Assembly: GCA_037976565.1 (NCBI GenBank)
Contig: CP137684.1
Coordinates: 22,394,233 to 22,458,232 of the forward strand
DNA length: 64,000 nucleotides
DNA from: Mesocentrotus franciscanus
Lineage: Eukaryota; Echinodermata; Echinoidea; Camarodonta; Strongylocentrotidae
Reading direction: 5' to 3'
Shown here: piece by piece, positions 27,184 through 62,863 of the stretch
How positions within the stretch are numbered: position 1 is the first letter of the stretch
How the letters are laid out: each line of letters begins with the position of its first letter
Program-made: the position numbers and the translations under genes
The notes under the pieces: generated by a model
What the model was told of the DNA's origin: nothing
Database searches by the model: none
The model's input: the letters and a program-made list of their open reading frames with translations, nothing else

Positions 27184-30100
27184 ATGGAGGGCACAAATCA
27201 ACAGCTTCATGATGCAGCATTGAGGGGTAACATCAAAAGCGTCAACAAACTGCTAAAACAGGGTTGTAACATAAACCAGACAGACCGAGATGGAAACACA
27301 CCCTTACACCTGGCGGTCCATGATGGCGTGGAGAGCGGCTTCGAGTATATCATTAATCATAGAATTAATCAAAGACCTGAGGTGAATAAGGACGGTACGG
27401 TTACATTACACACTCCTGCTCCGAAAGGTAATCTTGATATCACCAAATATCTCATCAGTCAAGGAGCTGAAGTGAATAAGGGAGGTAAAGACGGTGTGAC
27501 TGCATTACACATTGCTGCTTACAAGGGTCATCTTGACGTCACAACATATCTGATCAGTCAAGGAGCTAAAGTCAATAAGGGAAGTCAAAACGATTGTACT
27601 GGATTCCGCCGTGTTGGTCCGGCTGTCACCAAATATCACATCCGTCATATAGCTGAGGTGAATAGGGGAATTGATACCGGTTGGACTGCATTACACGGTG
27701 CTACTCAGGAAGGGCATCTTGATGTCATCAAATATCTCATCAGTCAAGGAGCTGTGGTGAATAAGGGAGATAAGAACGGTTTGACTGCATTACACAGTGC
27801 TGCTCAGAATGGTCATGTTGATGTTACAAAATATCTTATCAGTCAAGGAGCTGAAGTGAATATGGGAAGTAAAGACGGTTGGACTGGATTACACATTGCT
27901 GCTCAGAAAGGCCATCTTGATGTCACCAAATATCTCATCAGTCAAGGAGCTGAGGTGAATAGGGGAAATGATAACGGTTGGATTGCATTACACGGTGCTA
28001 GTCAGAAAGGTCATTTTGATGTCACCAAATATCTCATCAGTCAAGGAGCTGTGGTGAATAAGGGAGATAAGTACGGTTTGACTGCATTACGCAGTGCTGC
28101 TCAGAATGGTCATCTTGATGTCACCAAATATCTCATCAGTCAAGGAGCTGTAGTGAATATGGGAGATATTGACGGTTTGACTGCATTACACGTTGTTAGT
28201 CAGGAAGGTCATTTTGATGTCACCAAATATCTCATCAGTCAAGAAGCTGTGGTGAATAAGGCAGATAATGACGGTTTGACTGCATTACACAGTGCTGCTC
28301 AGAATGGTCATCTTGATGTCACCAAATATCTGATCAGGCAAGGAGCTGAAGTGAACAAGGAAAATAATGGGGGTTGGAATGCATTGAATTGTGCTGCGTT
28401 AAATGGTCATCTTGATGTCACCAAATATCTGATCAGTCAAGGAGCTAAAGTGTTTGAGGGAAGTAAAGACGGCTGGACTGTATTACACGGTGCTGCTCAG
28501 AAAGGTCATCTTGATGTCACCAAATACCTCATCAGTCAAGGAGCTGAGGTGAATAGGGGAAATGATAATGGTTGGATTGCATTACACGGTGCTACTCAGA
28601 AAGGGCATCTGGATGTCACCAGATATCTCATCAGTCAAGGAGCTGAGGTGAATAGGGGAAATGATAACGGTTGGATTGCATTACACGGTGCTAGTCAGGA
28701 AGGTCATCTGAATGTCACCAAATATCTCATCAGTCAAGATGCTGTGGTGAATAAGGGGAACGAAGACGGTAAAACTGCATTACACCTTGCTGCAATCAAG
28801 AATCATCTTGAGGTCACCAAATGTCTTATCAGTCAAGGAGCTGAAGTGAATTTGGGAGATAATGACGGTTTGACTGCATTACACCTTGCCGCAATCAAGA
28901 ATCATCTTGATATTACAAAATATTTAATCAGTCAAGGAGCTGAAGTGAACAAGAAAATGTATGTGGGTTGGACTGTAATAACAGGTGTTTCGTTAAATGG
29001 TCATCTTGATGTCACCAAATATCTGATTAGTCAAGGAGCTGTAGTGAATAAGGGAAGTAAAGACGGTAGGACTGCTTTGCACATTGCTGCTGAGAATGGT
29101 CGTCTTGATGTCACCGAATATCTGATTAGTCAAGGAGCTGAGGTGAATAAGGGAAATAATTACGGTTGGACTGCATTACACAGTACTACTCAAGAAGATC
29201 ATCTTGATGTCACGAAATATCTGATCAGTCAAGGAGCTGAGGTGAATAAGGGAGATAATGACGGTGCGACTCCATTACAAAGTGCTGCAAGCAAGGGTCA
29301 TCTTGGTGTCACTAAATATCTCATCAGTCAAGGAGCTGAGGTGAAAAAGAGAAATGATTACGGTTGGACTGCATTTCATTTTGCTGTTTACAGAAGTCAT
29401 CTTGATGTCACCAAATATCTGATCAGTCAAGGAGCTGAGGTGAATAAGGGAGATAATGACGGTGCGACTCCATTACAAAGTGCTGCTGAGAATGGTCGTC
29501 TTGATGTCACCGAATATCTGATTAGTCAAGGAGCTGAGGTGAATAAGAGAAATGATTACGGTTGGACTGCATTTCATATTGCTGTTTACAGTAGTCATCT
29601 TGATGTCACCAAATATCTGATTAGTCAAGGAGCTGTAGTGAATAAGGGAGGTAAAGACGGTAGGACTGCATTACAGCTTGCTGCTGAGAATGGTCATCTT
29701 GATGTCACCAAATATCTGATTAGTCAAGGAACTGTAGTGAATAAGGGAGGTAAAGACGGTAGGACTGCTTTACACATTGCTGCTGAGAATGGTCATCTTG
29801 ATGTCACCGAATATCTGATTAGTCAAGGAGCTGGAGTGAATAAGGGAAGTAAAGATGGTAGGACTGCTCACATTGCTGCTGAGAATGGTCATCTTGATGT
29901 CACCGAATATCTGATTAGTCAAGGAGCTGGTGTGAATATTGGAAGTGAAGACGGTAGGACTGCATTACACAGTGCTGCTCAGGAGGGTCGTCTCGATGTA
30001 ACCAAATATCTCATAAATCAAGGAGCTGAGGTGAATAAGGGAAATAATGACGGTTGGACTGCATAACACAGTACTACTCAAGAAGATCATCTTGATGTCA

Positions 30101-31419
30101 CGAAATATCTGATCAGTCAAGGAGCTGAGGTGAATAAGGGAGATAATGACGGTGCGACTCCATTACAAAGTGCTGCAAGCAAGGGTCATCTCGATGTCAA
30201 TAAATATCTCATCAGTCAAGGAGCTGAGGTGAATAAGAGAAATGATTACGGTTGGACTGCATTTCATATTGCTGTTTACAGTAGTCATCTTGATGTCACC
30301 AAATATCTGATTAGTCAAGGAGCTGTAGTGAATAAGGGAGGTAAAGACGGTAGGACTGCATTACAGCTTGCTGCTGAGAATGGTCATCTTGATGTCACCA
30401 AATATCTGATTAGTCAAGGAACTGTAGTGAATAAGGGAGGTAAAGACGGTAGGACTGCTTTACACATTGCTGCTGAGAATGGTCATCTTGATGTCACCGA
30501 ATATCTGATTAGTCAAGGAGCTGGAGTGAATAAGGGAAGTAAAGATGGTAGGACTGCTCTACACATTGCTGCTGAGAATGGTCATCTTGATGTCACCGAA
30601 TATCTGATTAGTCAAGGAGCTGGTGTGAATATTGGAAGTGAAGACGGTAGGACTGCATTACACAGTGCTGCTCAGGAGGGTCGTCTCGATGTCAATAAAT
30701 ATCTCATCAGTCAAGGAGCTGAGGTGAATAAGGGAAATAATGACGGTTGGACTGCATTTCATATTGCTGTTTACAGTAGTCATCTTGATGTTACAAAATA
30801 TCTGATTAGTCAAGGAGCTGAAGTGAATAAGGGAGGTAAAGACGGTAGGACTGCATTACAGCTTGCTGCTGAGAATGGTCATCTTGATGTCACTGAATAT
30901 CTGGTAAGCCAAGAAGCTGAAGTGAATATGGGAGATTATGACGGTATGACTGCATTACACCTTGCTGCTCTAGAAGGCCATCCTGATGTCACCAAATATC
31001 TAATAAGTCAAGGAGCTGAGGTGAATGAGGCAAATAATGACGGTCGGACTGCATTACACAGTACTACTCAAAAGGATCATCTTAATGTCACGAAATATCT
31101 GATCAGTCAAGGAGCTGAGGTGAATGTGGGAGATAATTGCGGGAAGACTGCGTTACACCTTGCCTCTCAGAATGGTCATCTTGAAGTCACTAAATATCTC
31201 ATCAGTCAAGGAGCTGAGGTGAATAAGGAAGATAGTGACAATAGGACGCCTTTACACTATGCCGTTCAGAAAGGTTACATTAATATCGAGAAAGTCCTTC
31301 TGAAAGGAGGAGCACGCTCTGACACAGGAGACATTCAAGGACACACACCTCTCCAATTGTCTTCGTTCCTCGGGTACCAAGGCATCGCTGATCTATTCAT
31401 CGACCGCTCAAATTCCAAG
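27184..31419 (+). CDS. Ankyrin exon (about 43 repeats of 33 aa), interrupted by TAA at 30064
   Basis: A single 4.2 kb exon. After a divergent first repeat (QQLHDAALRGNIKSVNKLL) come nearly identical 99-base units of the form WTALHxAAQNGHLDVTKYLI-SQGAEVNKGxxDG. Repeat 5 (near 27600) is shortened and lacks the TALH helix start. Repeat 28 has lost one leucine codon (near 29875). Repeat 30 carries TTA to TAA (30064-30066); the frame stays open on both sides. The last two repeats diverge as in capping repeats. The exon ends in phase 0 at AAG|GTAAAA. The start is the first ATG after an in-frame stop at 27163. Ankyrin repeats form a curved solenoid that binds partner proteins. Confidence 0.9.
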
Positions 31420-34400
31420 GTAAAAATAGTAAAACACACTTTATGTCGAAATCATCTACCTTGATGTATTCAATACACGCATGTAGAATAACAAGTACTG
31501 AAATTCAATAAGCTGAATTTTAGGCATAGACTACCTATCATTATTTATTCAGACTTGACCAACTCGATTTTGTATCTCCAATATATATTCTCCAATATAT
31601 ATAATCATACGTAATTATGACACCAGTTAGACTTCAATGCTGTTTTTTATGTGTTTTATAGACAAGTTACAATGTTTCCTTAAAACGTATTCGAATCATT
31701 GGATTAAATTATTCACATGGCAGTACTTGTGTTCACAGAAATTTGGCTTTCCTAGCAATAAACAAAAATCAAATCTCAAGTTTTCATTCTGCGTATTTTC
31801 CTTTATCCAGCTCGCCCAGAAAGATTTAACTGATATCCATTTTGCCATACAACACGGTCACACGTCTGTCATTGAAAAGTTAGTTTCTGAGGGAGCTGAT
31901 CTCAATGTCCAGTCAACTGATGGCCAGACGTGTCTGCATAAAGCCATTAAACTCTGCTATAAGAGCGTGAAAATTGTGCAAGAAACTGACACACTAAGAA
32001 AGGTGAGTCATGCCCCAGTAACCCAAACGAGACCGATACCAGACCGACGTATAGGTCTGAAAACAAATTAACATTAAGGGCAAATTAGGGTCAGTTCTGG
32101 AGTCTACATGGAGTCGTTATGATTTGATTTGTTTTATTGTCCAAATAAATGGAAATTATTTTTTCACATGGTTACAAAGTATATAAAATCAAGCATAAAT
32201 CAATTGAACAAACTTCAAATTACACATTACTCATTAATCACCGAGTAAGTCATATTAATAATTCAAACTTAATCTTTAAGGAACCAATCCTAAATTCAAA
32301 AACAATAAATCATACTTTTAATTTTAACTATGTGATCACATTATCTCATTAATGACTGTATATTTAATTTCAATATCCATATATATATAATAATAATCAC
32401 TTTAAAATCATATTTTACATCAAAGTACAATTTATGAATCATAAACAAGTACAACAATTTACTCATATTAAAGAGAGCGTCTATTACAGTTACGTATGAT
32501 TGGCGGTCGCCAATTTGGTCTTTTCAACACCATCCCCCAGAACGCTATTCTGTCTTACACAATGTTCATTGTATAGACTTCGCACCATATGAGACTATTA
32601 AAAAGACTGAATAAAAATGTACCGCACACGCAATGAATGTTACATTTATACTAAAAAAGTAGCGTGAGAAAATATTTAAAAAACACTTATGTTTGATATT
32701 TTCCGAAATAGTTTCACAACAACATCATTAATATTAATCTAAACATGATTTAAAGCAATGTTTGCTGCATTCAGCACGAGAAAATTTTGTTTACTAATAT
32801 TTTCACGTATACATTTTAACCAAGCTCGCACTTCAACGCAACGCTGTTTTGCTTGGCAACACAACCAAAATGGCGACTTATACAGTGTTTGCCCATTGCA
32901 AGCTCGGTACACACATTTTATTTGACCAAGTTTGCCGTGTTGCTACACAATCAACAATATCAGATTTGTACAATTCAAATATTGAGAATCTCCCGGAGAA
33001 AGATGAGCTCAAAATTATAAAACTGAAATATTAACATCAGTGTTTATTAACTTGCCACTTTTATTTTTCTATGTCAATATGCCGTTCATTCAAATCAGGT
33101 TCTGAACATTCTTAAACTCATTTTAAAAGGTGCTGTATTTTAAAGCCAAAACACTTTCTGTCTTGGTCTTGCAAACATTCATTGCACATATGTTTTAAAA
33201 CATGATATTAAACTAGTGTTTTACCATATTAATGTGTTTTATTGACGTCGTATATTTTAATGCTTGACATCCCAATGAAATTATTTATTTAACTCCAAGA
33301 GGCAGCGTTAAACTATGCGTATAATGCTCATCCACCCTGACTAAATTGATGGACGATACTTTTCTTTAAAAAATAATTATATATCTGTGTATGTTTCAGA
33401 TCTCTGATGAACATTACAAGGGCGAACTACCTCCTGAGAAGGCCTTGGTGTTTTATCTTCTGGAGAATGGAGCCAAGTTAGATGTGAAGGATAAGACAGG
33501 CAACCTACCAATCCAGTATGCCAAGGACGAAGTGATCAAACAAATGATTTTGTCTAGGTGATTTTTTTTTTCAGGTCTAAAAAAATAACATTATCCCCAT
33601 CAGCAATGTCACTTGTAAGACAAGGCGTATTTCCAACTTCCTCCTCTGAGACTAGGTAACGGAATGAGATATTTTGAAATAGAAAAGTCCACTAAGTACT
33701 GTTATTGTAAATCTTAACAGTTGATCATATATTAATATATGTGTTATTCGGACAATAAAATTGTACATTATGCGACAACTGCGACAATTAATATGTTCGG
33801 GGCTATAAGTCAGGCCTACATGGTCGACTACTTCATCTTTGTTTCCCTTCTACTCTTCTACTCAGATAGACAGTATAGATTTTCTACCAAATTCGTTTAT
33901 ACGATATTATCTAACTATAGTTTTTTTAAAGTTTGTCTTTTGTGTGTATTGTATTTTACGACATTACCAGGTGCAAAGGTATGTATTATTTTCTTCTTTG
34001 AATGCGTAATGCTAAGATTAGAGCCTCATTTTTTAAGTAATAGGCCTCGATAAGCGTCTGACATTCAACAGTTGTTCGATATTTGCTATTATTATCTATA
34101 TAAGGCTTCCAAGTGGTACAATAAATCAGTGTATTTCATATCTTTAGCGCAGTACCCGGATGACTGATCAATATTGTTGTCGTATTGCTCAGTCATCCGG
34201 GACAATATATTGTTATATCACACTCAAAGCCATCCAATATTATATAAATATCATGTATGTTGTTTCATATGAGTGGAAACAAATAGTTTTCACAGCCCAT
34301 AGAAATGACTTGTTTACGTATGAATAATTTCAGATTACCTTCTTTAGAGGAGATCCAGTCTTATCGAGGTAAGAAAATCCTTCAAACACAAATAGCTTTT

Positions 34401-37400
34401 CTCAGTATAATAGCTAAATAAGTGATTCTGATTTCTTTTTTCTTCTCAATCATTGAGTCACGGATTAATGACTAGCGATGATTAAACATGGTATTTCAGG
34501 TTTTCCATCATGAAGAACAAGGGATTTGATAATTCATTGTCCGGGTATTTTACTTAATCGCACACACAACTTACCTACTTATCCCTTACGAACACTACAT
34601 TCGTATGCATGTATGTAGAACCACCTCTTTGGTTAACATCAATGGACCAAATACGAGAGATAAACGGGGAATGTGCCCAAAATGAAAGAAAAATAGGAAA
34701 AACAGTTACATATAATAAAGAAGTGTTATGGATAAAACATTATTGGTTTTTCATAGGCCCTAATTGAAATATTAGAAACCAGTATTGAATATCAGAGTTT
34801 AGGTAAATAACAAAACCTTTGGAAATGGTAACAAACTCAATCCTTTTTTGTGGACAAGATTGAAAGGAAAACTATTTTAAAGCCCCATTGCACTACTTAT
34901 AGCTACTTGCGCCCTCTTTATAGCAAAACAATGCCTCATTGGTGACCGCTGGTCCCCCATGATCCCCTTTTTATTATGTTAATTGAGAGCTGATTTGATG
35001 AGATAACCACCTGTCAGTGACCCTCTGTGTGGTCTAATCCCTCCTGGCCAAACTAGTGTAGACGGGCTTTAATATGTTATTTGTTTTCATTCCAATGATT
35101 ATCCCGATGTGCAAATTAATTTACTTTGTTGTTTATATATGTCCTTATTGTCGTGTCATTTCCTTATGTTTGAAATAAACAACAGATAAACCATCAACAC
35201 CTACCATTGTCTCTGTTGAAGTCGAAACGAATACAAGTAAGGAAATCGAACTAGAAGACCATGGCGTATCACTGTTTATTCCTCTGGAGGCGGTTCATCA
35301 GAATGAATCGTGCAAGATCACCCTCACCCTTTTAAGAGACCCTCCCAGTGTTGACATCCAAGATGGTGAATCAGTGGCCTGCTACGGGATCAGATGTGAT
35401 CCACCAAACATGATCTTCGACCAACCTGTTAAGATAAGGATACCACACTCTACCTTGGCCATCAACCCTGATCAATTGAAACCAGACATCGTTTCCCATG
35501 TATGGGATTCAGAAAACGGTAAGTCCATCTGGTCAGGTGCTGAAACCGACTCGTTTTTAATGCTGGAGTAAATGAAAATTGATGCCCTGAGATCCATTTT
35601 CAGCAAACCATGCAAAGCACTTTCGAGACAACACTGATGAGTTGCGACATGTCTAAGTGGTAGAGATTGGTCTCGTAACCGGGTTGTCTCTGGTTCGAAA
35701 CCAAGTCGATGTGTTAGTGCCTTTTGGTAAGTCATTAAATTACCAAGTGGACTTAAGAGGACTCAAAGATGTTTGTCTCCTTGTCTTTTTTTAAACAAGT
35801 ATACTGCTTTCCTAGCAGTCGGGTAAAATACAAAAGCAAAATAAAACAATAAAAGTTGAATTCTCAGTATGCTATGCCCTGTTATGTTCTACGATTCCAT
35901 TGCAGGTAATAGAAAAAAATAGACTAAATGCTTGTCTAAAACTTGACTCTTTAATCGATCCTGATTGGTGATTGTGGTCTTTGAACGCTTTCTAAGTAAT
36001 CTCAGGGTTAGTAGTTCCAGTTCTAGGTATCGTCGTCATCACAGCGCCATAACGTCGTGAGGAACAATATATAACTCCCATTTTTCTGTTGAAATTGTTA
36101 ATAAAGGGAAACGGGTGAAAGGGGAGAGTGGGTGCTTGCTAGGATGGCTTATTAAACTTAAAACCATTTGTAGTAATCATGTCCACAGGGACACTAATTT
36201 CCTTTACTGATAGAAATATTTGGTGTCACCATATTCAGTTGCCACAATTTAAAGGAAAAATCGGCTCCATGCGGAATAACACATCCTAAAACAAACGCAT
36301 TTTGTTTTGTTACCCGCTGGCAATAGATCTACCAAGAACATCAAGAATGAAATCATCCAGTTCACCAGACGAACCACCATACTGCAGAGTGTACAAGCGA
36401 CATCTTGAGCTGTACATCGGTCACGGTGCTGAGTGGTGGGTTCTTATTCCTTTTGAACAGCAGGTGATCCGACACCAACTTATGTGCACTCCATACATCC
36501 CAGAAACCGTAGAAAGAGGCAAAGAGATTGAAGTTCATCTTCATGTGCATGCCGATGTTCCTGGCATGGATGCGGTTAGTAATGTTAACGTTTTCTATTA
36601 GTAAATTGTTAATTTGCAGTTCTGTTAAAACTGGCAACTACTGCACATTTCCGGAAGATTATAGGGTAGTTGTTTAAAATCCGACTTTCTGGGGTTATTA
36701 TGTGCAAGGCCTCACAGCTTGCTTACGCCAGACTTGATGGGATTTTCTAGAAGTGTGGTTAAAATTGCTGTACGCCATTAAAAATGTCTTGATGCATAAT
36801 TATCCGAGCATGGCCATGGCCTGTATGCCAAAGCCTACAAAATGCTGGTAACAAGCTGAATTTACTCGGATAGAACGAAGGATAAAGTACGGAATTACAT
36901 TTTATTGTCCTCAAGAATCATCCATCAGCGGCCTATAGTTTTTTTTTCGGAAAGGCTATCTGGGAAAAGTTGGGTGAACTCCCAATTTTCACCAATCGAT
37001 GTTTTTGAATTCCATTGAAATAAAAATTAAATGGAATCATGATAATGATTGTGAAAATAGTGTTGTTTAGTGAACCTCGGGATATATCCCGATGTTGTCA
37101 AGACAAATTTCCACGAGAACCTGAGAAACTTTCCGATTCATGAGGCCCATGTTTAACTCATTTGCTGGTCCCCTGATAGCAGAGCGACGTCTTAAAGACG
37201 TCATATTTACGTCTTGTACTACGTCTTTAAGACGACATAACATGACGTAAAAAAGACGTAAACTTGCACCCGCGTACGTCGTCTTCAGGACGACATATTT
37301 TGACGTGATTTTTACGCCTTATTCGTCAAAGAAAGACGCCTTTAAGACGTCAACTTGTACCATAGGAAGACGTCATATGGACGTCATATTTACGCCTTTT

Positions 37401-52400: not shown

Positions 52401-55400
52401 TGTCCTCATTCATCACCATTATTATGCTATTTACATTAAAGGGAGTGTAGCATGACGAGACTATATGTGTCTTTCCCGTGGCCCTACTCGGGGCCAATCG
52501 GGTAATAGCGAGCTTTCGATTTAGGCACCCGACGTGGGCTACTACGAGTTACTGGAGCGTGGAGACGTTGCGCAGCTCACGTCCGTTCCCTTCGCGGAAG
52601 TGCTTTCGATTTTTCACGACGGGGCTTTCGTCGGTCACGTGACCAATTTTTGAGATCAGGTGACTAAGTCAGGTACTAAATTCACAGTGCGCGAAAATCT
52701 GATACGAAGAATAACATAAGGATGAGAGAAAGAGATAGAATGATAAAAATAAAGAATAACATAAGAAAAGGTGATAGAAGGAAGAAACAAAGAATAACAT
52801 AAGGAAAGACAAAAAGAGAAAGTGATAGAATGATAAAAATAAAGAATAACATAAGAGAAGGTGATAGAAGGAAGAAACAAAGAAAAACATAAGGAAAGAG
52901 AATGTGATAGAATGATAAAAACAAAGACTAACATAAGAGAAGGTGATAGAAGGAAGAAACAAAGAATAACATAAGGAAAGAGAAATTGATAGAATGATAA
53001 AAATAATGAATAACATAAGAGAAGGTGATAGAAGGAAGAAACAAAGAATAACATAAGGAAAGACAAAAAGAGAAAGTGATAGAATGATAAAAAAATAAAG
53101 AATAACATAAGAGAAGATGATAGAAGGAAGAAACAAAGAAAAACATAAGGAAAGAGAATGTGATAAAATGATAAAAACAAAGACTAACATAAGAGAAGGT
53201 GATAGAAGGAAGAAACAAAGAATAACATAAGGAAAAAGAAAGTGATAGAATGATAAAAAATAAAGAATAACATAAGAGAAGGTGATAGAAGGAAGAAACA
53301 AAGAATAACATAAGGAAAGAGAATGTGATAGAATGATAGAAACAAAGACTAACATAAGAGAAGGTGATAGAAGGAAGAAACAAAGAATAACATAAGGAAA
53401 GAGAAAGTGATAGAATGATAAAAAATAAAGAATAACATAAGAGAAGGTGATAGAAGGAAGAAACAAAGAATAACATAAGGAAAGACAGAAAGAGAAAGTG
53501 ATAGAATGATAAAAATAAAGAATAACATAAGAGAAAGTGATAGAAGGAAGAAACAAAGTATAACATAAGGAAAGACAAAAAGAGAAAGTGATAGAATGAT
53601 AAAAAATAAAGAATAACATAAGAGAAGATGATAGAAGGAAGAAACAAAGAAAAACATAAGGAAAGAGAATGTGATAGAATGATAAAAACAAAGACTAACA
53701 TAAGAGACGGTGATAGAAGGAAGAAACAAAGAATAACATAAGGAAAGAGAAAGTGATAGAATGATAAAAAATAAAGAATAACATAAGAGAAGGTGATAGA
53801 AGGAAGAAACAAAGAATAACATAAGGAAAGACAGAAAGAGAAAGTGATAGAATGATAAAAATAAAGAATAACATAAGAGAAGATGATAGAAGGAAGAAAC
53901 AAAGAATAACATAAGGAAAGAGAATGTGATAGAATGATAGAAACAAAGACTAACATAAGAGAAGGTGATAGAAGGAAGAAACAAAGAATAACATAAGGAA
54001 AGAGAAAGTGATAGAATGATAAAAAATAAAGAATAACATAAGAGAAGGTGATAGAAGGAAGAAACAAAGAATAACATAAGGAAAGACAGAAAGAAAAAGT
54101 GATAGAATGATAAAAATAAAGAATAACATAAGAGAAAGTGATAGAAGGAAGAAACAAAGAAAAACATAAGGAAAGACAGAAAGAGAAAGTGATAGAATGA
54201 TAAAAACATAGAATAACATTAGAGAAGGTGATAGAAGGAAGAAACAAAGAATAACATAAGGAAAGACAGAAGGAGAAAGTGATAGAATGATAAAAATAAA
54301 GAATAACATAAGAGAAGGTGATAGAAGGAAGAAACAAAGAATAACATAAGGAAAGACAGAAAGAGAAAGTGATAGAATGATAAAAAATAAAGAATAACAT
54401 TTGAGAAGGTGATAGAAGGAAGAAACAAAGAATAACATAAGGAAAGACAGAAAGAGAAAGTGATAGAATGATAAAAATAAAGAATAACATAAAAGAAAGT
54501 GATAGAAGGAAGAAACAAAGAAAAACATAAGGAAAGACAGAAAGAGAAAGTGATAGAATGTTAAAAACATAGAATAACATTAGAGAAGGTGATAGAAGGA
54601 AGAAACAAAGAATAACATAAGGAAAGAGAATGTGATAGAATGATAAAAACAAAGACTAACATAGGAGAAAGTGATAGAAGGAAGAAACAAAGAAAAACAT
54701 AAGGAAATTAAGACAGAAAGAAAAAATGATAGAATGATAACAACAGGGATACCGAGGAAACTGCACCCACGTTGCCGTTTTCACGACGACGGGGATTCAC
54801 GGAAATTGCCCCCGACTCCCGTCGTGTGATTTGGAAGGGAACGTGGGCCCAGAAGCTCGCACATGCGCAGTTGATAAATATGACGTCACGCGTCGTAGCC
54901 CACGTCGGGTGCCTAAATCGACTACGGACGACGCGACCGCAGCATTCACGTGCGTGCAACATACGCGAAACCGAAGCGTGAGGAGAACTTCGGTCTGTTT
55001 CGCGGACGCTAGCGCACGCTGATCTGAGCATGAAGAGATTAAGTCGCTGATTACCGTTAATCAAGTCCATCCGTTTACGTGCAGTTGTCCAAAAGAAGAC
55101 GTAGATGGCGTTAACCAGTATTTGCCATGCTACACTGAATATTTTCCTTCCTATCTACTGACAAATGCATTTTTTCACTGTCCACAGGCCGTGAAGGAAT
55201 CTCAAACGCCATTGGATCCAAGGTAGACCTAGTGGACTTATGTCAACGCCTGAATGTTAAACCTTCTGTCGTCTTGCAGATCATGAGCACATTTGTGACC
55301 TTCTCGCCTGACATGATTGGCCGTTGTACTCTGAAGATGCTTAAAGAATGGGTCCACCACGGTGGGACTAGGGAGAGGCTTCTGGAAGTTGCTCAGGCTT

Positions 55401-58400
55401 TCCGTTTCAACGATGCAGCAGTAAAGATAGCAGAAGGTAATGTCATTTCACAACTCCACTGTGTTTCACATCACACTAAAATAATGGTGTAGGCCTACTT
55501 GGTCAGTGGAAGAAGACAAATGTTTGAAAGATTCATTGGGTGGTATTCTCATAAGTTAAGCCAGGCTTAACTTAGTACGCGCTATCGGAATACCACCCAT
55601 TATGTTTACTTACTATTGCCTGACTATAAAATTAATCCACATCCTCCCTTCAGAGAAAAAATCATTAAATGATCGGCAGGATCGAGCTTGTGCACCTTCA
55701 ACTTCTATTAAGAAAGATTAATCATGAGCCGTGTTGCTAGATAAGGAAACGCGCATAGGAAAGGAAATTATCCCTTTACCAGTTATCATTCAGACCTAAG
55801 AAGCGCAGTATACCAACAAATTAACTTGTTTGAATTTTTCAGGAACATCTCGGAGATTTTGCCAATGATGACTATCTTTTAAAACATTGACATAATTTAC
55901 TCAATACAGCAGAGTTCTAAGAAAATAAATTTGGAAAAGCGAGATTACCTACCATTATTTATTCTTTTACTCGAATCAAATCCTGACTCAACATGATTGT
56001 AACATCTTTATTCAAGCCCCTACAAACATGCCTTATTACACGCTTGTTTCCCAATCGCTTTACAGTAAAAACACTCAAAATGGACTGCCTTGGAAATAAC
56101 CATGAACAAAACTTGGCACAACTTGATATTTTTATGATGAACTGTAGGTTATTTGCTTCATGTTTCATATGGGGATTATCAATGACTTGTTTCCTTCTTA
56201 TCATCCTCAGCCATGAAATGCGAGCCGAGCTATATACCTTTCATCTCGCATGGCATCATTGATCACAAGGGTGGAAAATTAACCATTGATGAACTTGGTA
56301 TCGCCGTATCTATCCCTGAAGGAGCTATGCCAAAAGGGATGAGATCAGTTGTAAGTCTTCGCGTCCCAACTCATGATACTCCTAGGCTTCCTGTACGGGA
56401 GGGTGAGGTAGTCATTACTCCAGCCATAGAGTGTTCTCTGACACAAGAACTGCTCAAGCCTGCCACGGTGGTACTATCACACTGTACCAATCAGCATGAA
56501 CTTACAGACGACTCTTCTGTCATCTTGTACACAAGAACTGGACCAGGTACAAAGTTATCAACATATTTTGATTTTGTTCTCTTGGGATAAAAAATGAAAA
56601 CATCATCACTTGACATTTGAATCCTGATAAGTTGACACATGAGGTCTTTTCACAGATATATACTACTCTTCCCGTCATGAGAATCAAAATCTAGAATGAT
56701 GAGCTGGAGAAAGTTAATATTGAATCATTTCTCAATAATAAACATAAAGTATCATTATGCAATTTGAATCAACTCGCTGAACAAAACTTGAATCTAGTCA
56801 AATACCAGAACATGAAATGATTCGAAATCAATTCCTACTCTACTCATAATCCATATTGTATAAGCCTATATTATCAGGGAGTAAGATGGTTTAATAAATA
56901 TTCTTAAATCTTTATTTTCTTTGATTCAAAGGAACGTTCGGTCGTAGAAGCCTGACTCCGCGCACGTCACAAATCTTAAAAGATAAGATAAAGTTTCGTA
57001 CACGTCATCTTCAAGTCTGGGCTCTGTCATCGACTGATCTTCAAGAACTCCAGCTGAGATGTGTAGTCTTCCAGCCTCTCTTCATGACTCCTGCAGAGAA
57101 ACCAACTCTACGTGTATACATAATTCATCCATATAGGAACTATATAGAGGTATTTATATCATATAATCTATATCCCTCTTTTGCGGACACCATTTGATTA
57201 TCTAATAATTAAAAGGTTCCCCTACTGGCTATTCAAGTTACGAAAGGCATGTGGTAACACTTTGCAATTCATCGAAGAACGTCTCATTAGAATTTCTTTG
57301 TGATGAGTGATGAGTTTTGGGAAGGGGGAAAAGTGAGGAGGGAGAATGAGTGGGGAGTAAAGTAGAAGGAGGAATCGGATGGATGCCACAAAAACGGCGG
57401 GTAAGAGGGAAGGATAGGGCTTTTACAACTCTAGTCCAGAAATGATAAGGTTTCCATTCTGCCTGCTTAATTCGAACAAATTCCTTCAAATTATAGCTTT
57501 GTGCTGAAATACGGGATGAAAGAAAACAAACTTAGTCTGGAGTAGAGACTACTCAGGTAATATTTTTTAACAGAATACATGCCAAATATGTTATTTCATG
57601 GAACAATACACATTGCAGTTAGCACGTGTAAAAGAAAGGGGGCAGTACTTTATGGTTTAATAATAATAATAATAATACACAACATTTATTAGGCGCTTAA
57701 TACTTGTGTTTCTAAGCGCACCATTGTCTGATTTAAAATTACTAACCAAAACTTATAATAAACACACAAATTATAAATCTGTTCTTTATTCAATAAATCA
57801 TGCATATACAATAATATATGTGTGTTAGATTATGAAATCCATTGAAGTATCTATTTCTCATTAAATTTCTTTGTGATAAGTGATGAGTTTTGAGTGATAT
57901 TGCCGTACATATCTTTCTGTGATGCTTGTTGTATCAGATGGTAAGTGGGGATCAGTACATAATTTGACGGTTCATACACGACGTAGAGTTTTGTGATTAG
58001 CGTTATCCTGGGGAAGGTCATTGGAATAGGGATGTAGAATGTTTTGGAACTGCATCACTTTCAGGCTAATTAATGTCCTGATAGGCCTAATGTTATTTTC
58101 GGTAAATATTCAGCTTAAGTGCAGTATTTGTGCATTTAGCTATTTCATTATGTGGATATTAGAAGATTAATCTGGACATGTTAACATATTTTGGACCGAA
58201 CTCTTCAATAATAGAACTAATTTTCTGACTGTTTATTGAACATGTTATTTCTAACATTAAATTGTTACGTTTAAACAATCGAAATGAGCTTTACATGTGT
58301 GTAAATAAAGGTTATGTATATGTTTTTTATAGGCCTACAATAGTTGACGTCAATCATTTGCATAACATATTATCATTTTGCCATATCCAGATTTGAGTTG

Positions 58401-61400
58401 TATTTGTCATATTCCAGGATATAACGAGGAAGGAGAAGAGTTCTTCTGTACCCTACTGCCAAGTCCTGAAGGAATTCAGGTTCGCTATGCAGTCAACATC
58501 ATTGGACTTAAAGATTTTGTTCCACGGCGGGGCGAAAAGAAACAAAAGAATGGTAAATATGTGTGAAAGTTATTCCATAAGGTCTGTTAGAGAATAGTGG
58601 TCGATATGGGATTTTGAAGGAAAAAAAAGTACATTATCGAAGCTTAATTGTATAGCTAGTATAAAATCCTAATTGTATCAGAAATCCTGAAACGTATTGA
58701 ATATCACTCATTAGCACTCTACCTATGTGAGTATGTAGGACTACAAATATTTGGGCAAATAATCAATTCCTCCAGCACACGTTCTTTTATTCAGTTCATA
58801 CGACTTGAATGATTTTATCGGAATAACTGTAGGCATTATGGACTTTTGCAGTCAAATTGAATTGTAATGATTGTTACAGCAACAAAAATGACATGATAAT
58901 ACAAATTATGAATCACATTGAAGAGCGATACATTGTATTCTGGAGGCATGAACATGGCGTCGAGATTTTGAAAGGTATTTCAGTAGAAAATCAACATTTA
59001 TTTTAGACTCGGATGCAAAGACATAAATAAAGATCTCCAGGGATATGAAGCATGCATACATAGTAATGGACAGGTGGTACTAGGAGGGTTTCGTGTAGAA
59101 AGTATGAAATCGATAGGATGAAGAACAAAAATCAAATAGATATTTTACACACCTCATTCTTTTCCAGATGTACATGTATTTTTCAAAGGTGATATCATGA
59201 CATGCCTGTTTTACATAAGTGCAACAATCGACTACCTCGAGGGTACATTTTAGTAAAGTAGTCAGTAAGTAGTAATTGAACCTCTTCCTTATTTCGAACT
59301 CGGATCACATTAAATCAAATATATTCGCTCTCTTACTTTCTCTCCTTCATCAAACTCACCTATATCCCCACATAATATGCGCGTTAGACTTACTTACACT
59401 TGGTCCCTCCTATTCCATGTGTCCAATTGGACAGCAACACAAGTCCTTCATCCTCAGTGGTCCTCACCAAGAGATTTGTCATCTTTCCAGCTCAGGTTCA
59501 GGGCGTATAGATCATAAAGATTATCATCCATGTTGTTATCAGACGTCCACGTTTTCTGTTCCACCTTCTAGCTTCCAGTCTATACTCCCTGTGTGTCTTG
59601 TTGATGGCATTCTAAAAATACGCCAAAGAACCTCAGAAGACGATCTTTCTCTGAATACACGTATGATCATGTTAATTTTGTATTGTCATCTTCATTATTA
59701 TTTTTGTCATTATTATTATAATTATTCCCCTGGAATTCGAATCAAGATGCCCATCAAGAGTATACTAAATGGAAAGTGCAGCCCTCTGAATTTCGAGCTT
59801 CCGTTTTCTCTTGAAGAGAAAGGAAAGAAGAACGTCCATATCGACATACTTCAAGGGTCAGCAACCCTTGCTGAAAGAGAGTATATCATTTCAATAGAAG
59901 GTAGGTCTATATTATCAGGAATTACGATAGTTTGTGTATTTCACTTCATCGAATTAGCCCGTTACCTCAAAGACTATACACAAGCCATTTCTGTGACTTG
60001 TTACCTCATAGACCCTACATAAGTCATTCATGTAGCCATATATCTCAAGGACCCTACATATTATCAATTCTGTAACTTCAATGTATCTGTTTTCTCCTCA
60101 ATCAATATGAATTATTAAAATGAGCTTTAAAGTTAGCGTTTAAATGCCCCCCTTTTAAAGGTTAAGTTTGAAAGAGGTGGAGAATGAATTCTGTTGCAAA
60201 ATACAATAAATGCCATAAACAATCATTCCTAGTTTAGGACTAACAAAAAATAGCTGTGGGATAGATCGGGACGGATCTGAAATCTGTTTTTAACAAGTTC
60301 ATTTTCTTCTCCTGTCTTCTGAAATAGGGATATTGCATTTTGTGACACTCATCAAACATTAAAAACAAAATCATTGAGTATGCTGATTACTTTTTCTCTC
60401 TAAACACAGCCTTTATATTAAATACATAGCAACTCCGAGTACAGAAAAAAAAATACGCCTTAGTACTATATATTTTTTCGTTCATATTCCGTTTGATGCA
60501 GACGAACCAGATTATGCAGTCGATCACACAGATTCGTAAGTAAAAGAATATCATCATCCATGAATTTATTTATCCATCATTCTTCCAACAATAAGTATTA
60601 AGTAAAATCTAACATATGTTTATTATAACAATGTCCATAAAGATCATTACACCAGGCATTTATCATTTCTAACGCGTAACCCATCACTAGAAAGTTATAG
60701 GCCTAATTACCTGTAATTAGTATGACTACTGGTCGACATTCAACTTTTGTCAGTCGATTCTCGGTCTATATAGATAAGGGTGGTTTATCTAATGGCCCTG
60801 CCACACCTTGACAATTTAGCCAGCGTATGCCGACGTATGAAGATTTTGGTAATTACGCTGGCGTACGTCGAATAAATTATGGGTAAGTTTTGTATCAGTT
60901 AAGAGCACGCTGAAGCACGCTGGCGTACGGCGAGGTCGTCGAAAATTTGTGTGCATGTACAACATTTTCGACGTATGCCAGCGTATGGCTCATTGTCATA
61001 CGTCCCGCATATGCGGGCCATAAGTTGTAGGTACGTTATGCGATCGTTGACACACATTCACACACATTACTTGTAAGTTACTCATAAGTCGACATACGTC
61101 GAGATAATGTCTAGCGTACCCAAAACTTATTTCTAACCTATGAGTAACGTGCTTTGAACCTATGTCGAACTTATCTCCAACGCATATCGATGTATGTACG
61201 CGTATTTGACGTGTTCCGAACGACCACAGAACTTACTACTAAACGTGCTTTTAACTATTACAGCTACCGTATAATGGCGTATTGACAGCGTTTAGGGGAA
61301 TTGGTATATATAAATGGGGTTCACTATTACGTTATGTATACGTCCAACTCGTTATGAATACGCTATATACGCCCCCCCCCCCAAAAAAAAAAAAAAAAAA

Positions 61401-62863
61401 AAAATGATAGTTCAGCGTATTCCAGCGTTTTAGAGAAATTTTGATACGTCGGCATACGCTGGCTAAATCGCAAAGGTGTGACAGGGCCATAAGGACAATA
61501 ATTCCTGTCAATATTTACAAAGGAATGTACCAACCCTCCATCAATTAGTATTTCATTTATTAATACTTTTTGCATATTTTTTAAATATAATGAGTAACAG
61601 ATGGACATAATGACGAAAATAACAAAATTCGCAGCATTATACATTTCGATATCCTAAAATATGATTTCCCGCCAAATGTTATGAATTTACTTTTCTGCAG
61701 GCAGGGGCGATTACAGTATGTATCCAACAATCTTCTCGAAACCCTGCCAGATGTAATCCCTTCAATAAAGGACTTAAAGTCCCTTGGATACCAGCTAGGG
61801 TTCTCTTACTCAGCTGTAGAGAAATACCTCAACCGCCCAGACTCGTCATTTGATTGTGTCTCAAGATCAGGCTGTGGTGAGATGCTACGTGAATGGAGAC
61901 GGAAGGTTCGACCTAGTGAGCAGGTAGATGAACTTCATCTAGCATTACAAAATGCTGGGTTAGGCCATACAGCTGATGTCATCCTACCTGAACGTAAGTA
62001 CCATACTACACTCTCTCTCACCCTCTCTCACCCTCTCTCACCATTTGCAAAACTACAGTGTATAATGTTTCCTTGACGCGTTGCAGAGTTTGGAACAATA
62101 ACAAATTTTCGAACTCCCTTTTACTAAAACATAGACGAAGGTACTAAGAAAAGTTTTTCAATTGTATTATTCACCGAAGCGATCTGGTTTGTGCTCGAAC
62201 AGTCGAACTATTTCTAATCCTGCCCCATTATTGGTAGGCACATATTTCATACACATCGGAAGAGGCTTATCAAGTTGGGAAAACAATCTGGTCCTATATA
62301 TTTCGTAAGCACCCAGCAAGGATGCAACCTGGAACCTCTCATAATTATGACAGTCCAGAGTCATCAATCTACCACAGTTCTTCCACGTATATAAATGAAT
62401 GTGAGCTTTAATTTAATCCTGGGGGCGGTTTTTTGTTGTTGTTGTAAGAACAGCAGCAAGGAAGGCTTTGTTCCCCTACCGCCCACATTGACTCCCCCAT
62501 ACTCTAATTGTTGTATATTATTCGTTCTTTACTCTTTAAATGAACCATCAGATTTTGTTGATGTTCTTTGTCCTTTACTATGTTCACTGTTCCTTTAATT
62601 CTAACCCTCAATTAAAAGTACCTCCGGATATTCCAATTATTGTACTTTCTGTCTTCTTTACTATGTGTTTTTTAAATCAACTATCATTGAGTAGCATCGC
62701 GGAAATTTATAATTCTGGAATTTTCTTCCTTTCTACCCTTTTGATTTTACACATAAACTATCAATCTTTCTTCTTCCCTATTTATATGTGTATTTTACCA
62801 GTGAGTAGCACTTCTAGGAGGCACTTTGAACAAGTCAGACAAGCATTGGAGTCAAATAAGTAG
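27184..62863 (+). CDS. Giant ankyrin-ZU5-UPA-Death scaffold gene, 21 coding exons, 2,618 codons with one internal nonsense codon
   Basis: Twenty-one exons join with matching phases from ATG 27184 to TAG 62861-62863. Approximate residues: ankyrin repeats 1-1530; ZU5-1 1541-1651; UPA-like 1652-1788; Death 1 1801-1895; Death 2 1901-1986; acidic linker 1987-2021; Death-like 3 2022-2125; Death-like 4 2126-2208; ZU5-2 2209-2320; UPA-2 2321-2489; Death 5 2501-2598; short tail. No signal peptide or membrane segment is evident, so it should be a cytoplasmic protein-interaction scaffold. ZU5-UPA-Death is the supramodule of ankyrins, PIDD and UNC5 receptors, known to keep the Death domain in check; the role here is inferred. 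Codon 961 is TAA (30064-30066) where sister repeats have TTA. Either this allele is broken, the assembly is wrong, or a shorter product is made. It could also be two genes, but unbroken phase continuity argues for one. Confidence 0.75.
30064..30066 (+). other. In-frame nonsense codon in ankyrin repeat 30
   Basis: GGTTGGACTGCATAACACAG here differs from GGTTGGACTGCATTACACAG at the matching place of repeat 21 (29164-29183) by one base. It turns Leu TTA into TAA without changing the frame. Confidence 0.9.
31811..32002 (+). CDS. Ankyrin-like exon 2
   Basis: 64 codons, phase 0 to 0, acceptor CTTTATCCAG and donor GTGAGT. Contains LTDIHFAIQHGHTSVIEKLV and DGQTCLHKAIKL, two diverged ankyrin repeats that end the solenoid. 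Confidence 0.88.
32003..33399. other. Intron, AT-rich, no element recognised
   Basis: No exon, RNA gene or inverted repeat of note was seen in this 1.4 kb intron. Confidence 0.5.
33400..33557 (+). CDS. Ankyrin-like exon 3
   Basis: Acceptor TATGTTTCAG, encodes KALVFYLLENGAKLDVKDKT then GNLPIQYAKD, ending in phase 2 at GTGATT. This is one more diverged ankyrin repeat. Confidence 0.85.
34334..34368 (+). CDS. Short linker exon (35 bp)
   Basis: Acceptor TAATTTCAG, donor GTAAGA; phase 2 to 1. Encodes LPSLEEIQSYR between the ankyrin repeats and ZU5. It is small, but the phases fit exactly. Confidence 0.72.
34881..35068 (+). mobile_element. TTAA MITE, family A copy 2
   Basis: 188 bp, TTAA at 34877-34880 and 35069-35072, ends AGCCCCATTGCACTA and the inverted TAGTGTAGACGGGCT, in the intron just before the ZU5 exon. 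Confidence 0.78.
35186..35518 (+). CDS. ZU5 domain 1 exon
   Basis: Phase 1 to 1, 111 residues. The ZU5 pattern is visible: ELEDHGVSLFIPLEAVHQNE (family GVSLxIPPGA) then GESVACYGIRCDPPNMIFDQ and PVKIRIPHSTLAI (family GPxxxxFxxPVxLxIPH). ZU5 is a beta-sandwich found in ankyrins, ZO-1, PIDD and UNC5. Confidence 0.88.
35641..35760 (+). mobile_element. tRNA-derived SINE head
   Basis: A good B box GGTTCGAAACC lies at about 35692-35702, preceded about 45 bases upstream by an A-box-like TCTAAGTGGTAGAG. It lies in an intron; a functional tRNA is not supported because the acceptor stem does not pair. Confidence 0.6.
36327..36574 (+). CDS. ZU5-1 C-terminal / UPA-1 start exon
   Basis: Phase 1 to 0, 82 residues. 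RVYKRHLELYIGHGAEWWVL corresponds to the end of ZU5 (compare TRHLQVWALSS in the second copy), and GKEIEVHLHVHADVPGMDA to the first UPA strands. Donor GTTAGT. The polypyrimidine tract before GGCAATAG is weak. Confidence 0.75.
37180..38120. repeat. Left terminal array, period about 190 bp
   Basis: GCACCCGC...ACGTCGTC recurs at about 37267, 37457 and 37646. Each unit also repeats AAGACGTC, GACGTCATAT and TTTTTACGCCTTA motifs. Copies decay towards the interior. Confidence 0.85.
38121..39834. other. Transposon interior: inverted and direct repeats, no gene
   Basis: A hairpin spans about 38640-38845 (AAGTCTTGCGGTTGTGAG against CTCACAACCACAAGACT). Part of it (GCTATxCTGATACCxGCAG) recurs at 39226-39246. 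Reading frames are short with no recognisable domain. Confidence 0.55.
39835..40160 (-). mobile_element. LINE 3' UTR, with the ORF relic next to it
   Basis: Follows directly, on minus, the C-terminal ORF relic at 40165-40700 and matches the isolated tails at 3755-4056 (plus) and 185-275 (minus). This links the tails to a non-LTR element. Confidence 0.7.
40165..40700 (-). pseudogene. LINE ORF2 C-terminal fragment, frameshifted
   Basis: Minus-strand frames give RWSDQWNSSTTNLKEFIPEP then, after a frameshift, WVNLNRIRIGVGRTQYFLHK and CACGEIQTMDHVIDACP. The LNRIRxGxGR motif and CxC-x8-H-x4-C knuckle are typical of the end of Jockey/CR1-type ORF2 proteins. It is nested inside the 8.7 kb transposon. 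Confidence 0.82.
42180..42349. mobile_element. TA-flanked MITE (about 170 bp)
   Basis: Ends AGTCAAACCTG and CAGGTTTGACT are inverted and flanked by TATA. The inside repeats CTGTCTACAAxGACCAC. Mariner/Tc1-type by its target. Confidence 0.65.
43440..43690. repeat. Dispersed TAATAAT...AGCGC repeat with SINE-like tail
   Basis: The (AAT)n start followed by ATAGCGCCTAACACTT resembles 57660-57720. The later phrase GTGTGGCAAATGTAGATCAA matches 19065-19085. Confidence 0.5.
44600..45895. repeat. Right terminal array, period about 70 bp
   Basis: Eighteen or so units of TTTTAAAGACGTCATAATGA, CGTCGTCAATACGACAAAAA and TTATCTTGGAAAAATAGTC; the last several are spaced 69-71 bases apart. A perfect CRE palindrome TGACGTCA lies at 44865-44872. 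Confidence 0.88.
46049..46063 (+). other. Possible alternative first coding exon (MAENK)
   Basis: ATGGCAGAAAATAAG in a good start context (GGGAAGATGG) ends exactly at a GTACGT donor in phase 0, the phase accepted by the exon at 47059. This could be an internal promoter start or chance. Confidence 0.25.
47059..47221 (+). CDS. UPA-1 exon
   Basis: Phase 0 to 1, acceptor TCGTCCTTTAG. Encodes LLSLKEIHNRMRHNVVLKVP and NVITITLTQSGNLGVSRSMA, a UPA-type beta-rich stretch like that encoded at 59747-59900. Donor GTTTGT. Confidence 0.78.
47284..47442. mobile_element. Near-perfect hairpin MITE (159 bp)
   Basis: Left arm 47284-47358 (AATAATGACTGCT...GGTTACATCGTGCTATCAC) is inverted at 47366-47442. Almost the whole unit can fold into one stem with a tiny loop. 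It lies in the intron after the UPA-1 exon. Confidence 0.8.
47443..48472. other. Intron without recognised features
   Basis: AT-rich DNA between the hairpin MITE and the next linker exon. Nothing further seen. Confidence 0.45.
48473..48509 (+). CDS. Linker mini-exon before Death 1 (37 bp)
   Basis: Acceptor CATGGTTGCAG, donor GTAAGC, phase 1 to 2. Encodes DEIKSPEFTPVIR. A parallel mini-exon (DEPDYAVDHTDS) precedes Death 5, which supports it. Confidence 0.75.
48814..49097 (+). CDS. Death domain 1 exon
   Basis: Phase 2 to 1, 95 residues. Shows the Death pattern: VQKIAEKLSIDDFYDLGVAL, GFQIQQLDAIEY, then AIFEMLIKWKQRQLPHQNV and KEVLLSLLK, with the conserved tryptophan of helix 5. Death domains form homotypic signalling assemblies. 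Donor GTTTTA is unusual. Confidence 0.87.
49903..49918 (+). CDS. Micro-exon (16 bp) before Death 2
   Basis: CACCGTACTTCAG acceptor and GTAAGA donor bracket 16 bases encoding DITPT(G), phase 1 to 2. It is needed to pass from the phase 1 end of Death 1 to the phase 2 start of Death 2, which is why I accept it. Confidence 0.55.
50849..51105 (+). CDS. Death domain 2 exon
   Basis: Phase 2 to 1. DQDLLKLARHIKSTDFMEIG, TKLGFSRNKLENI and IQMLCTWKASQRSVPEATE fit the Death helices with the conserved tryptophan. The exon end fits ACAG|GCAATT, a GC-AG type donor; no GT donor in phase is present there. Confidence 0.82.
51524..51628 (+). CDS. Acidic linker exon
   Basis: Phase 1 to 1, acceptor TTTTTCTCAG, donor GTAGAT. 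Encodes SLLMISSATPEKRAKPSEPI then EPEDMDIITTSDTG, a disordered, acidic and proline-containing linker. Confidence 0.72.
51781..52092 (+). CDS. Death-like domain 3 exon
   Basis: Phase 1 to 1, 104 residues. CSVALSVKSLSLAFSLGKAL, IVGFIDLPSLSVLHKIAEEL and VDSWRNGLKEEE give a helical Death-like pattern with the tryptophan kept, but it is more diverged than Death 1 and 2. Confidence 0.78.
52444..55136. mobile_element. Foldback element (2.7 kb) with an internal minisatellite
   Basis: Terminal AGTGTAGCATG (52444) is inverted as CATGCTACACT (ending 55136). Further in, GATTTAGGCACCCGACGTGG GCTACTACG near 52520 is inverted at 54894-54923. The GC-rich flanks enclose the tandem array at 52690-54740. No transposase was found. 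It lies in the intron between Death-like domains 3 and 4. Confidence 0.75.
52690..54740. repeat. Dimeric purine-rich minisatellite (unit 81-93 bp, about 24 copies)
   Basis: Each unit has two related halves, both starting AATAACATAAG: one continues AGAAGGTGATAGAAGGAAG, the other GAAAGA...GTGATAGAATGATAA. The opposite strand lacks stop codons over long stretches, producing hydrophobic reading frames of up to 574 codons that are artefacts. Confidence 0.92.
55188..55436 (+). CDS. Death-like domain 4 exon
   Basis: Phase 1 to 1, acceptor TTCACTGTCCACAG, donor GTAATG. KVDLVDLCQRLNVKPSVVLQ, TLKMLKEWVHHGGTRERLLE and VAQAFRFNDAAVKIAEG fit a Death-like helical bundle with the helix 5 tryptophan. Confidence 0.8.
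55437..56210. other. Intron without recognised features
   Basis: A short inverted stretch near 55540-55610 (GGTGGTATTC...GAATACCACCC) suggests a small MITE; otherwise unique DNA. Confidence 0.45.
56211..56546 (+). CDS. ZU5 domain 2 exon
   Basis: Phase 1 to 1, 112 residues. IIDHKGGKLTIDELGIAVSI followed by PEGAMPKGMRSVVSLRV is a textbook ZU5 start (family D..GG.L.....GV.L.IPEGAI); VVITPAIECSLTQELLKPAT and VVLSHC complete it. It resembles UNC5/PIDD ZU5 more closely than ZU5-1 does. Confidence 0.9.
56932..57149 (+). CDS. ZU5-2 C-terminal / UPA-2 start exon
   Basis: Phase 1 to 0. DKIKFRTRHLQVWALSS is the ZU5 end; PTLRVYIIHPYRNYIE starts UPA (UNC5 has LRVYCLEDTPDAL). Where PIDD has the self-cleavage HFS, this copy has HLQ. 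Donor GTATTT. Confidence 0.8.
57150..58417. other. Intron with (AAT)n and short duplicated text
   Basis: TTTCTTTGTGATxAGTGATGAGTTTTG occurs at about 57293 and again at about 57869. A TAATAAT...AGGCGCTTAATACTT repeat lies at 57660-57720. No exon was recognised. Confidence 0.5.
58418..58552 (+). CDS. UPA-2 middle exon
   Basis: Acceptor TTTGTCATATTCCAG, donor GTAAAT. In phase 0 it encodes DITRKEKSSSVPYCQVLKEF and RFAMQSTSLDLKILF, which lines up with the UNC5 UPA stretch ELEQEERKLGGCLLEK...HNLRLSI. Another frame is also open (GYNEEGEEFFCTLLPSPEGI) but does not fit the neighbouring phases. The frame choice is inference. Confidence 0.6.
58553..59746. other. Intron without recognised features
   Basis: A plus-strand frame stays open from 59276 to 60022, but only its end (59747-59900) resembles UPA. 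The earlier part holds an exon-like stretch at 59572-59661 whose phase does not fit. Confidence 0.4.
59747..59900 (+). CDS. UPA-2 C-terminal exon
   Basis: Phase 0 to 1, donor GTAGGT. Encodes MPIKSILNGKCSPLNFELPF and KNVHIDILQGSATLAEREYI, parallel to the UPA-1 exon at 47059. The acceptor (GAATTCGAATCAAG) is poor; AG at 59757-59758 would also keep the frame. Confidence 0.6.
60502..60535 (+). CDS. Linker mini-exon before Death 5 (34 bp)
   Basis: Acceptor TTTGATGCAG, donor GTAAGT, phase 1 to 2. Encodes DEPDYAVDHTDS, the counterpart of the mini-exon at 48473. Confidence 0.72.
60793..61490. mobile_element. MITE-like element with GGCCCTGCCACACC ends (698 bp)
   Basis: Left end ATGGCCCTGCCACACCTTG is inverted at the right end (GGTGTGACAGGGCCAT), followed inward by TTTAGCCAGCGTATGCCGAC and its inverse. 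The interior repeats GCGTACG and GTATGTCG motifs, with a C-run and A-run near 61370-61403. It lies in the intron before Death 5. Confidence 0.78.
61701..61993 (+). CDS. Death domain 5 exon
   Basis: Phase 2 to 1, acceptor CTTTTCTGCAG, donor GTAAGT. LPDVIPSIKDLKSLGYQLGF, SYSAVEKYLNR, GEMLREWRRKVRPSEQVDEL and HLALQNAGLGHTADV give a clear Death domain with the helix 5 tryptophan. Confidence 0.87.
61994..62801. other. Last intron
   Basis: AT-rich DNA between Death 5 and the terminal exon. A plus frame near 62540-62863 is open, but only its last 20 codons fit the gene. Confidence 0.5.
62802..62863 (+). CDS. Terminal coding exon
   Basis: Acceptor GTGTATTTTACCAG; completes a Leu codon and encodes SSTSRRHFEQVRQALESNK then TAG. 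The phase fit and the amphipathic helix following the Death domain support it. Confidence 0.72.

Follow-up and report, generated by a model that had tools for sequence, protein, structure and literature searches.

Two putative ZU5-UPA-Death modules behind an ankyrin arm in a sea-urchin multigene family

The window analysed here, a whole 64,000-nucleotide stretch of Mesocentrotus franciscanus DNA (C19:22394233-22458232, in an assembly of 773 Mb in 21 contigs), almost certainly contains a single transcription unit belonging to a multigene family of sea urchins; its domains run from an ankyrin arm through ZU5-UPA-Death, Death, D3 and Death (D4) to a second ZU5-UPA-Death. We regard the locus as a member of a gene family and not a one-off, because the D3 exon recurs at 32 loci of the genome and annotated Strongylocentrotus and Lytechinus proteins have the same order. 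The family is already in databases as uncharacterized.

Exons were delimited by stop-to-stop frames whose conservation extends to five paralogs within this genome (C16b, C6, C20, C21 and C16a), and splice sites were taken from aligned boundaries. The resulting plus-strand gene (27184-62863) has 22 exons, running from an ATG at 27184, the first in-frame ATG after an upstream in-frame stop at 27163, to a TAG ending at 62863; all 21 junctions are in frame, and 2651 codons lie ahead of the final stop. E1 (27184..31419) carries the ATG and an ankyrin-repeat array, followed by the last ankyrin repeats (E2, 31811..32002), the end of the ankyrin arm (E3, 33400..33557) and a short linker exon (E4, 34334..34368), the last three identified by paralog conservation and splice sites. 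A conserved stretch at 34440-34790 was considered as an exon and discarded, with stops in the tested frame.

The first module begins with ZU5-A in E5 (35186..35518). E6 (36327..36574) holds the ZU5-A end and the start of UPA-A, which continues through E7 (45935..46063) and E8 (47059..47221), both supported by paralog conservation, module alignment and splice sites. A 37-base exon (E8b, 48473..48509) stands ahead of Death 1 (E9, 48814..49097), and a 16-base microexon (E9b, 49903..49918) is required to keep Death 1 in phase with Death 2 (E10, 50849..51105); in the annotated proteins P0013, P0014 and P0016, D1 and D2 stand 99 residues apart, which fits this microexon. Then come a linker (E11, 51524..51628), repeated three times in P0009, the D3 exon (E12, 51811..52092) and the D4 exon (E13, 55188..55436). 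The second module comprises ZU5-B (E14, 56211..56546), the ZU5-B end with the start of UPA-B (E15, 56932..57149) and UPA-B (E16, 58418..58552, and E17, 59747..59900), E15 to E17 on the strength of paralog conservation. A 34-base exon (E17b, 60502..60535) precedes Death 5 (E18, 61701..61993), and the last coding exon (E19, 62802..62863) ends in the TAG stop. The E8b peptide is the same in annotated P0008 and P0009, and P0009 also has a peptide matching E17b; the gene model is therefore independently supported.

A sequence-only reading of the same DNA had described the gene with 21 exons, a number that we raise to 22, the microexon at 49903-49918 among them. Its coordinates, strand, domain order and consistent phases are borne out by conservation against the five paralogs. 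Because phase helped choose some of the splice sites, frame agreement by itself is no independent proof, and the conservation of splice dinucleotides serves as independent support. In C16b and C6, the two closest paralogs, acceptors are conserved in 37 of 38 cases (AG) and donors in 38 of 38 (GT/GC), against a background in intron flanks of 242/388 for AG (62%) and 283/446 for GT (63%); the sole acceptor failure is E5 of C6, which reads AT. Across all five paralogs the corresponding counts are 75/84 acceptors and 81/84 donors. The E1 donor, E9b and E19 were left out of these counts. The E10 donor is GC, and is likewise GC in 5/5 paralogs.

Several other features of the window were recorded. 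The intron after E6 spans 9360 bases, far longer than in C16b and C6, and contains tandem arrays rich in GACGTC (37221-45848, periods 59-189) that are probably an inserted element. The intron between D3 and D4 holds a minisatellite (52725-54740) in which a 90-base unit is repeated about 23 times and which accounts for the long minus-strand frames there. Downstream of the gene, 63120-63663 has similar sequence, in one orientation or the other, within three paralogous regions and looks like a dispersed repeat. An open frame at 13351-13683 has a JmjC-type resemblance by eye; Pfam returned no family at E <= 5 for the ORFs 13351-13680 and 39174-39587.

Pfam finds ZU5 twice, at 46.1 bits in module A and 55.7 bits in module B (cut-off 21). 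Among PDB sequences, ZU5-A matches ZO-1 and weakly UNC5B, and ZU5-B matches ZO-1 (1e-8) and the UNC5B structure 3g5b (E 3.6e-7). UPA (PF17217) was matched in 0/5 module-A members, and in 2/5 module-B members below the 27-bit cut-off (15.7 and 13.5 bits; E 0.012 and 0.058); PDB sequence profiles of whole modules likewise gave ZU5 matches and none to UPA. The putative UPA assignment is thus sub-threshold, drawn from position and from the alignment of module A with module B, in which 238 columns of the two ZU5-UPA profiles align (E 7.6e-5, probability 62%). Of the two ZU5-UPA-Death supramodules proposed in the sequence-only reading, the ZU5 and Death parts stand above the Pfam cut-off, whereas UPA falls below it. 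The phase series of E5-E9 and E14-E18 are identical. Since the cassette is present twice with identical phases, the simplest reading is that a six-exon ZU5-UPA-Death cassette was duplicated internally, with Death-type exons inserted.

The Death family of Pfam is found three times, in Death 1 (30.8 bits), Death 2 (30.6) and Death 5 (26.7), against a cut-off of 22.6. D4 shows a six-helix Death fold, and we class it as a Death domain by structure; Foldseek gave a best E of 0.38 for it, with none <=0.001, and a PDB profile search gave nothing convincing (one RIPK1 row, E 0.43). D3 is a helical domain whose Death-like status is not settled: its fold search returned weak rows alone, no Death domain among them, a result that excludes nothing, and a PDB profile search gave no convincing match. 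The three extra Death domains claimed earlier therefore hold for D2 and D4 and are not settled for D3.

The ankyrin array in E1 has 42 repeat anchors, spaced mostly by 33 residues, and E2-E3 contribute a few more, so that an earlier estimate of about 45 repeats was fair. Across 33 ankyrin units, per-codon variation averaged pN 0.185 and pS 0.254, with pN above pS at several unit columns including 2, 7, 29, 31 and 32; these values are descriptive. The array is interrupted by an in-frame TAA at 30064..30066 (codon 961, plus strand), not mentioned in the sequence-only account, and the window copy is for this reason not open throughout. The stop falls after about 28 of the 42 anchors, where a sister repeat at 29164 has TTA at the same codon; beyond it the frame stays open to the donor. 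A recent segmental duplication around the stop was considered and rejected: self-comparison of E1 gave no block >250 bases at 95% identity, the best 400-base windows reached 89%, and a shared 27-mer differing at the TAA was the sole such match. A damaged ankyrin arm is common to the window copy and several others. In 2/5 paralogs (C16a, 1028 aa; C20, 1036 aa) the ankyrin exon reads through without interruption; in the other 3/5 it is damaged, occupying two frames in C21 and three in C16b and lacking its 3' end in C6.

We read the window copy as a probable null or truncated allele, most likely unable to yield a full-length protein; it would be either a dying copy, an allele or the source of an ankyrin-only product. 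One rival explanation holds that the locus is a dead pseudogene, in which selection ceased with the stop in the ankyrin exon and the copy is decaying, and we see the chances for and against it as evenly balanced. The TAA is present in the assembled sequence, and other copies are broken as well: C16b and C21 by frameshifts in the ankyrin exon, C6 by loss of the 3' end, and C6 and C20 also by a Death 5 split over frames. Against decay, the exons downstream of the TAA have no further stop before the final TAG, the 21 junctions remain in frame, and the TAA, a matter of one base within a repeat array, may reflect a misassembly or an allele still segregating. The tail dN/dS also speaks against it, at 0.40 even against the closest paralog, where dS is 0.13. 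This ratio, which omits small exons, is 0.40 for C16b (1164 codons), 0.39 for C6 (1145), 0.36 for C20 (1075), 0.33 for C21 (1096) and 0.33 for C16a (670); single exons exceed 1 in E15 (1.42, C16b), E11 (1.14, C16b; 1.15, C6) and E16 (1.15, C20). Such comparisons show the family to encode a protein under constraint, and paralog dN/dS does not show that the window copy is alive.

Genome-wide searches gave 150 scored ZU5 matches (241 candidates), 31 D4 matches and 32 good D3 matches (35 rows), 20 of the last on C16 and the others on eight further contigs. At these 32 D3 loci we found ZU5-A 27 times, D1 28, D2 31, D4 31, ZU5-B 31 and D5 29; two of the ZU5-A matches lie more than 25 kb away and may come from a neighbour. 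All six landmarks are present in one order and strand at 24/32 loci, and the window copy has ZU5-A, D1, D2, D3, D4, ZU5-B and D5 in one order and strand. No opposite-strand D2, D4 or D5 row lies within 12 kb of any D3 at the 32 loci. At 27/32 D3 loci an ankyrin-end exon precedes D3 by 5-45 kb on the same strand (two at ~30 and 34 kb). Eight of 39 D2 rows lack a D3 within 25 kb, among them C16a, a sister type whose second ZU5 differs. Stops occur in 9/39 D2, 0/32 D3, 0/31 D4 and 2/31 D5 rows, and three of the 31 D5 matches come in two pieces. C16:19635036-19651928 carries an inverted duplicate: two D3-D4 copies with the same scores, facing opposite ways at a distance of about 15 kb. A dense cluster of another ZU5 type (profile 5-87) at C2:16.1-18.0 Mb is unrelated to the ZU5 pairs studied here. 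The lineage-specific expansion first suggested from the window is supported by the 32 D3 loci and by named relatives that are all sea urchins.

A search of annotated proteins (which are predictions) with E2-E19 scored about 7980 candidates and returned 40 proteins, all from S. purpuratus, L. pictus or L. variegatus. Twenty of them have D3 and D4, ten of these have both ZU5, and five of the ten have the ankyrin end; ZU5-A, D3, D4 and ZU5-B stand in one chain in 10/40, and P0013, P0014 and P0016 span ZU5-A to D5. A profile search (~7980 candidates scored) gave 42 proteins at E <= 1e-20, with source-given names all sea urchin, adding a Diadema antillarum protein with ankyrin-ZU5-UPA-D1-D2 and without D3, D4 or a second ZU5, as well as P0048. 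So far as searched, the family appears restricted to sea urchins. P0048 (L. variegatus LOC121405948) starts with the last ankyrin piece and extends to D5, its ankyrin match below Pfam's cut-off; P0012 (L. pictus LOC135155490) runs from the ankyrin array through UPA-B, with the D5 match absent; and P0008 (S. purpuratus LOC580955) runs from ankyrin through ZU5-B. All three have the domain order of the window gene and are called uncharacterized, and we found no published description of them or of this layout in the open literature searched. No annotated protein was seen to join a long ankyrin array to Death 5; a full-length relative could not surface, because the 1239-residue query admits candidates only up to about 2170 residues. 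Proteins spanning both modules support the claim of a single gene. Two L. variegatus proteins depart from the common layout: P0039 (LOC121417076) is annotated as Death-NACHT-ankyrin-ZU5-UPA-Death, an NLR-like head or a fused gene model, and P0049 (LOC121421169) reads D2-D3-D4-ZU5B-UPA-D5 and then another ZU5-A and UPA-A, possibly a third module or a run-on into the next gene.

According to PMC3210808, PIDD, CARD8 and NLRP1 cleave themselves at (H/S)F|S at the ZU5 end, and an F-to-H change in CARD8 severely impairs cleavage. Downstream of the TAA, the window's predicted protein contains no [HS]FS. The aligned site of module A, in E6, is HGA at the place where HFS-bearing relatives carry HFS; most relatives read HCA or HSA there, and module B lacks a corresponding site. 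HFS occurs in 0/20 proteins with D3 and D4 versus 7/20 others, related sequences that do not amount to 20 independent events, and the alignment is less certain for P0034, P0046 and P0047, which have weak ZU5-like parts. It is absent from the 12 further proteins of the profile search. The sister locus C16a, in the same genome, has HFS and encodes WLEVSISHFSGGFF. We predict that the window's protein type does not self-cleave. The split in HFS between the D3+D4 subfamily and the sister subfamily is new here.

In each window module, ZU5 and Death are ordered as in the ZU5-UPA-Death cytoplasmic region of UNC5B, with a putative UPA, below cut-off here, between them. UNC5 proteins have an extracellular Ig/thrombospondin part and a membrane span; the window gene differs in having an ankyrin arm in place of the receptor part, two modules and extra Death-type domains, and Pfam on E1 pieces and E2-E19 found no receptor (Ig/thrombospondin) families at E <= 1. 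PIDD1, CARD8 and NLRP1 also place ZU5-UPA beside a Death-fold domain, and the sister subfamily has HFS where a ZU5 ends, but the window type is without [HS]FS. PIDD has leucine-rich repeats, whereas Pfam finds ankyrin repeats in the window gene. Canonical ankyrins (ANK1-3 type) share with it an ankyrin array before ZU5 and Death. They have two adjacent ZU5, then UPA and Death (cf. entry 4d8o); the window ZU5s are instead separated by four further domains, ZU5-UPA-Death occurs twice, and there are dozens of loci. Marine invertebrates, echinoderms included, have lineage-specific expansions of Death-fold immune proteins, some fused to UPA-ZU5, according to PMC8195603. As described there, these proteins resemble the window family in pairing a constant Death-type core with an arm that varies and differ in being built on TRADD-N domains, the window gene having been checked by Pfam alone.

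We give our best explanation as a whole, family identity together with working mode, about an even chance. Tentatively, and with somewhat less than even confidence, we propose that the family works as a cytosolic scaffold, with an ankyrin ligand arm, ZU5-UPA closure, Death assembly and no autoproteolysis. The ankyrin arm would bind a protein ligand, and each ZU5-UPA pair would fold onto its own Death domain and keep it closed; in UNC5B, ZU5-UPA closes over the Death domain. Ligand binding would open the Death domains, which may then nucleate a Death-domain assembly and recruit caspase or NF-kB adaptors. Release would come through opening, not autoproteolysis, since neither module carries the self-cleavage motif, unlike PIDD and the sister subfamily. 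The large Death-platform under intramolecular control, with an ankyrin as sensor arm, that the sequence-only reading suggested is likewise a proposal.

Innate immunity would fit better than a housekeeping role because of the high copy number, the broken copies, the variable ankyrin arms and the published Death-type expansions; the NACHT-bearing layout of P0039 also points toward immunity, unless it is a fused gene model. A scaffold function unconnected with immunity is possible. A fuller scheme, which we consider unlikely, would make these proteins two-tier intracellular immune sensors, an HFS self-cleaving subfamily and an uncut multivalent platform or brake, both diversifying by copy birth and death with changing ankyrin arms. 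In that scheme the second subfamily, which includes the window gene, would have doubled the ZU5-UPA-Death cassette, gained two further Death-type domains by insertion and lost the cleavage site from both modules. It is improbable that uncleavable double-module members act as decoys or dominant regulators restraining the HFS sister proteins through Death hetero-assembly: HFS is kept in the sister subfamily and at C16a and absent from the D3+D4 subfamily, but motif loss is also expected of plain scaffolds. We attach similarly little probability to an ankyrin-like role as a membrane-cytoskeleton adaptor with structural Death domains; the gene has an ankyrin array and ZU5-UPA-Death parts, and relatives are named 'ankyrin-3-like' and 'ankyrin-1-like' in databases, yet its two ZU5 are not adjacent, unlike the ankyrin ZU5-ZU5-UPA-Death tandem, and dozens of copies, many broken, contrast with the single echinoderm ankyrin gene reported in PMC5135030. 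Two adjacent genes (ankyrin-ZU5-UPA-Death-Death and D3-D4-ZU5-UPA-Death) are scarcely credible: the D2 rows without D3, the Diadema protein ending after D2 and an ATG codon at the start of E14 would suit them, but phase is continuous from E9b to E14, D3 and D4 rows all share strand with the neighbouring D2 wherever listed, the ten proteins above join both halves, and C6 has a leucine codon in place of the E14 ATG, with leucine also in 5/7 aligned proteins.

In this large set of proteins, restricted to sea urchins so far as searched, the ZU5-UPA-Death unit (its UPA putative) that serves for control in UNC5, PIDD and ankyrins was doubled and wrapped round extra Death-type domains. HFS-bearing and HFS-less relatives in one genome offer a direct way to test the role of self-cleavage in such scaffolds. 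If immune, these genes would constitute a new intracellular sensor family in animals whose expanded surface receptors are better known.
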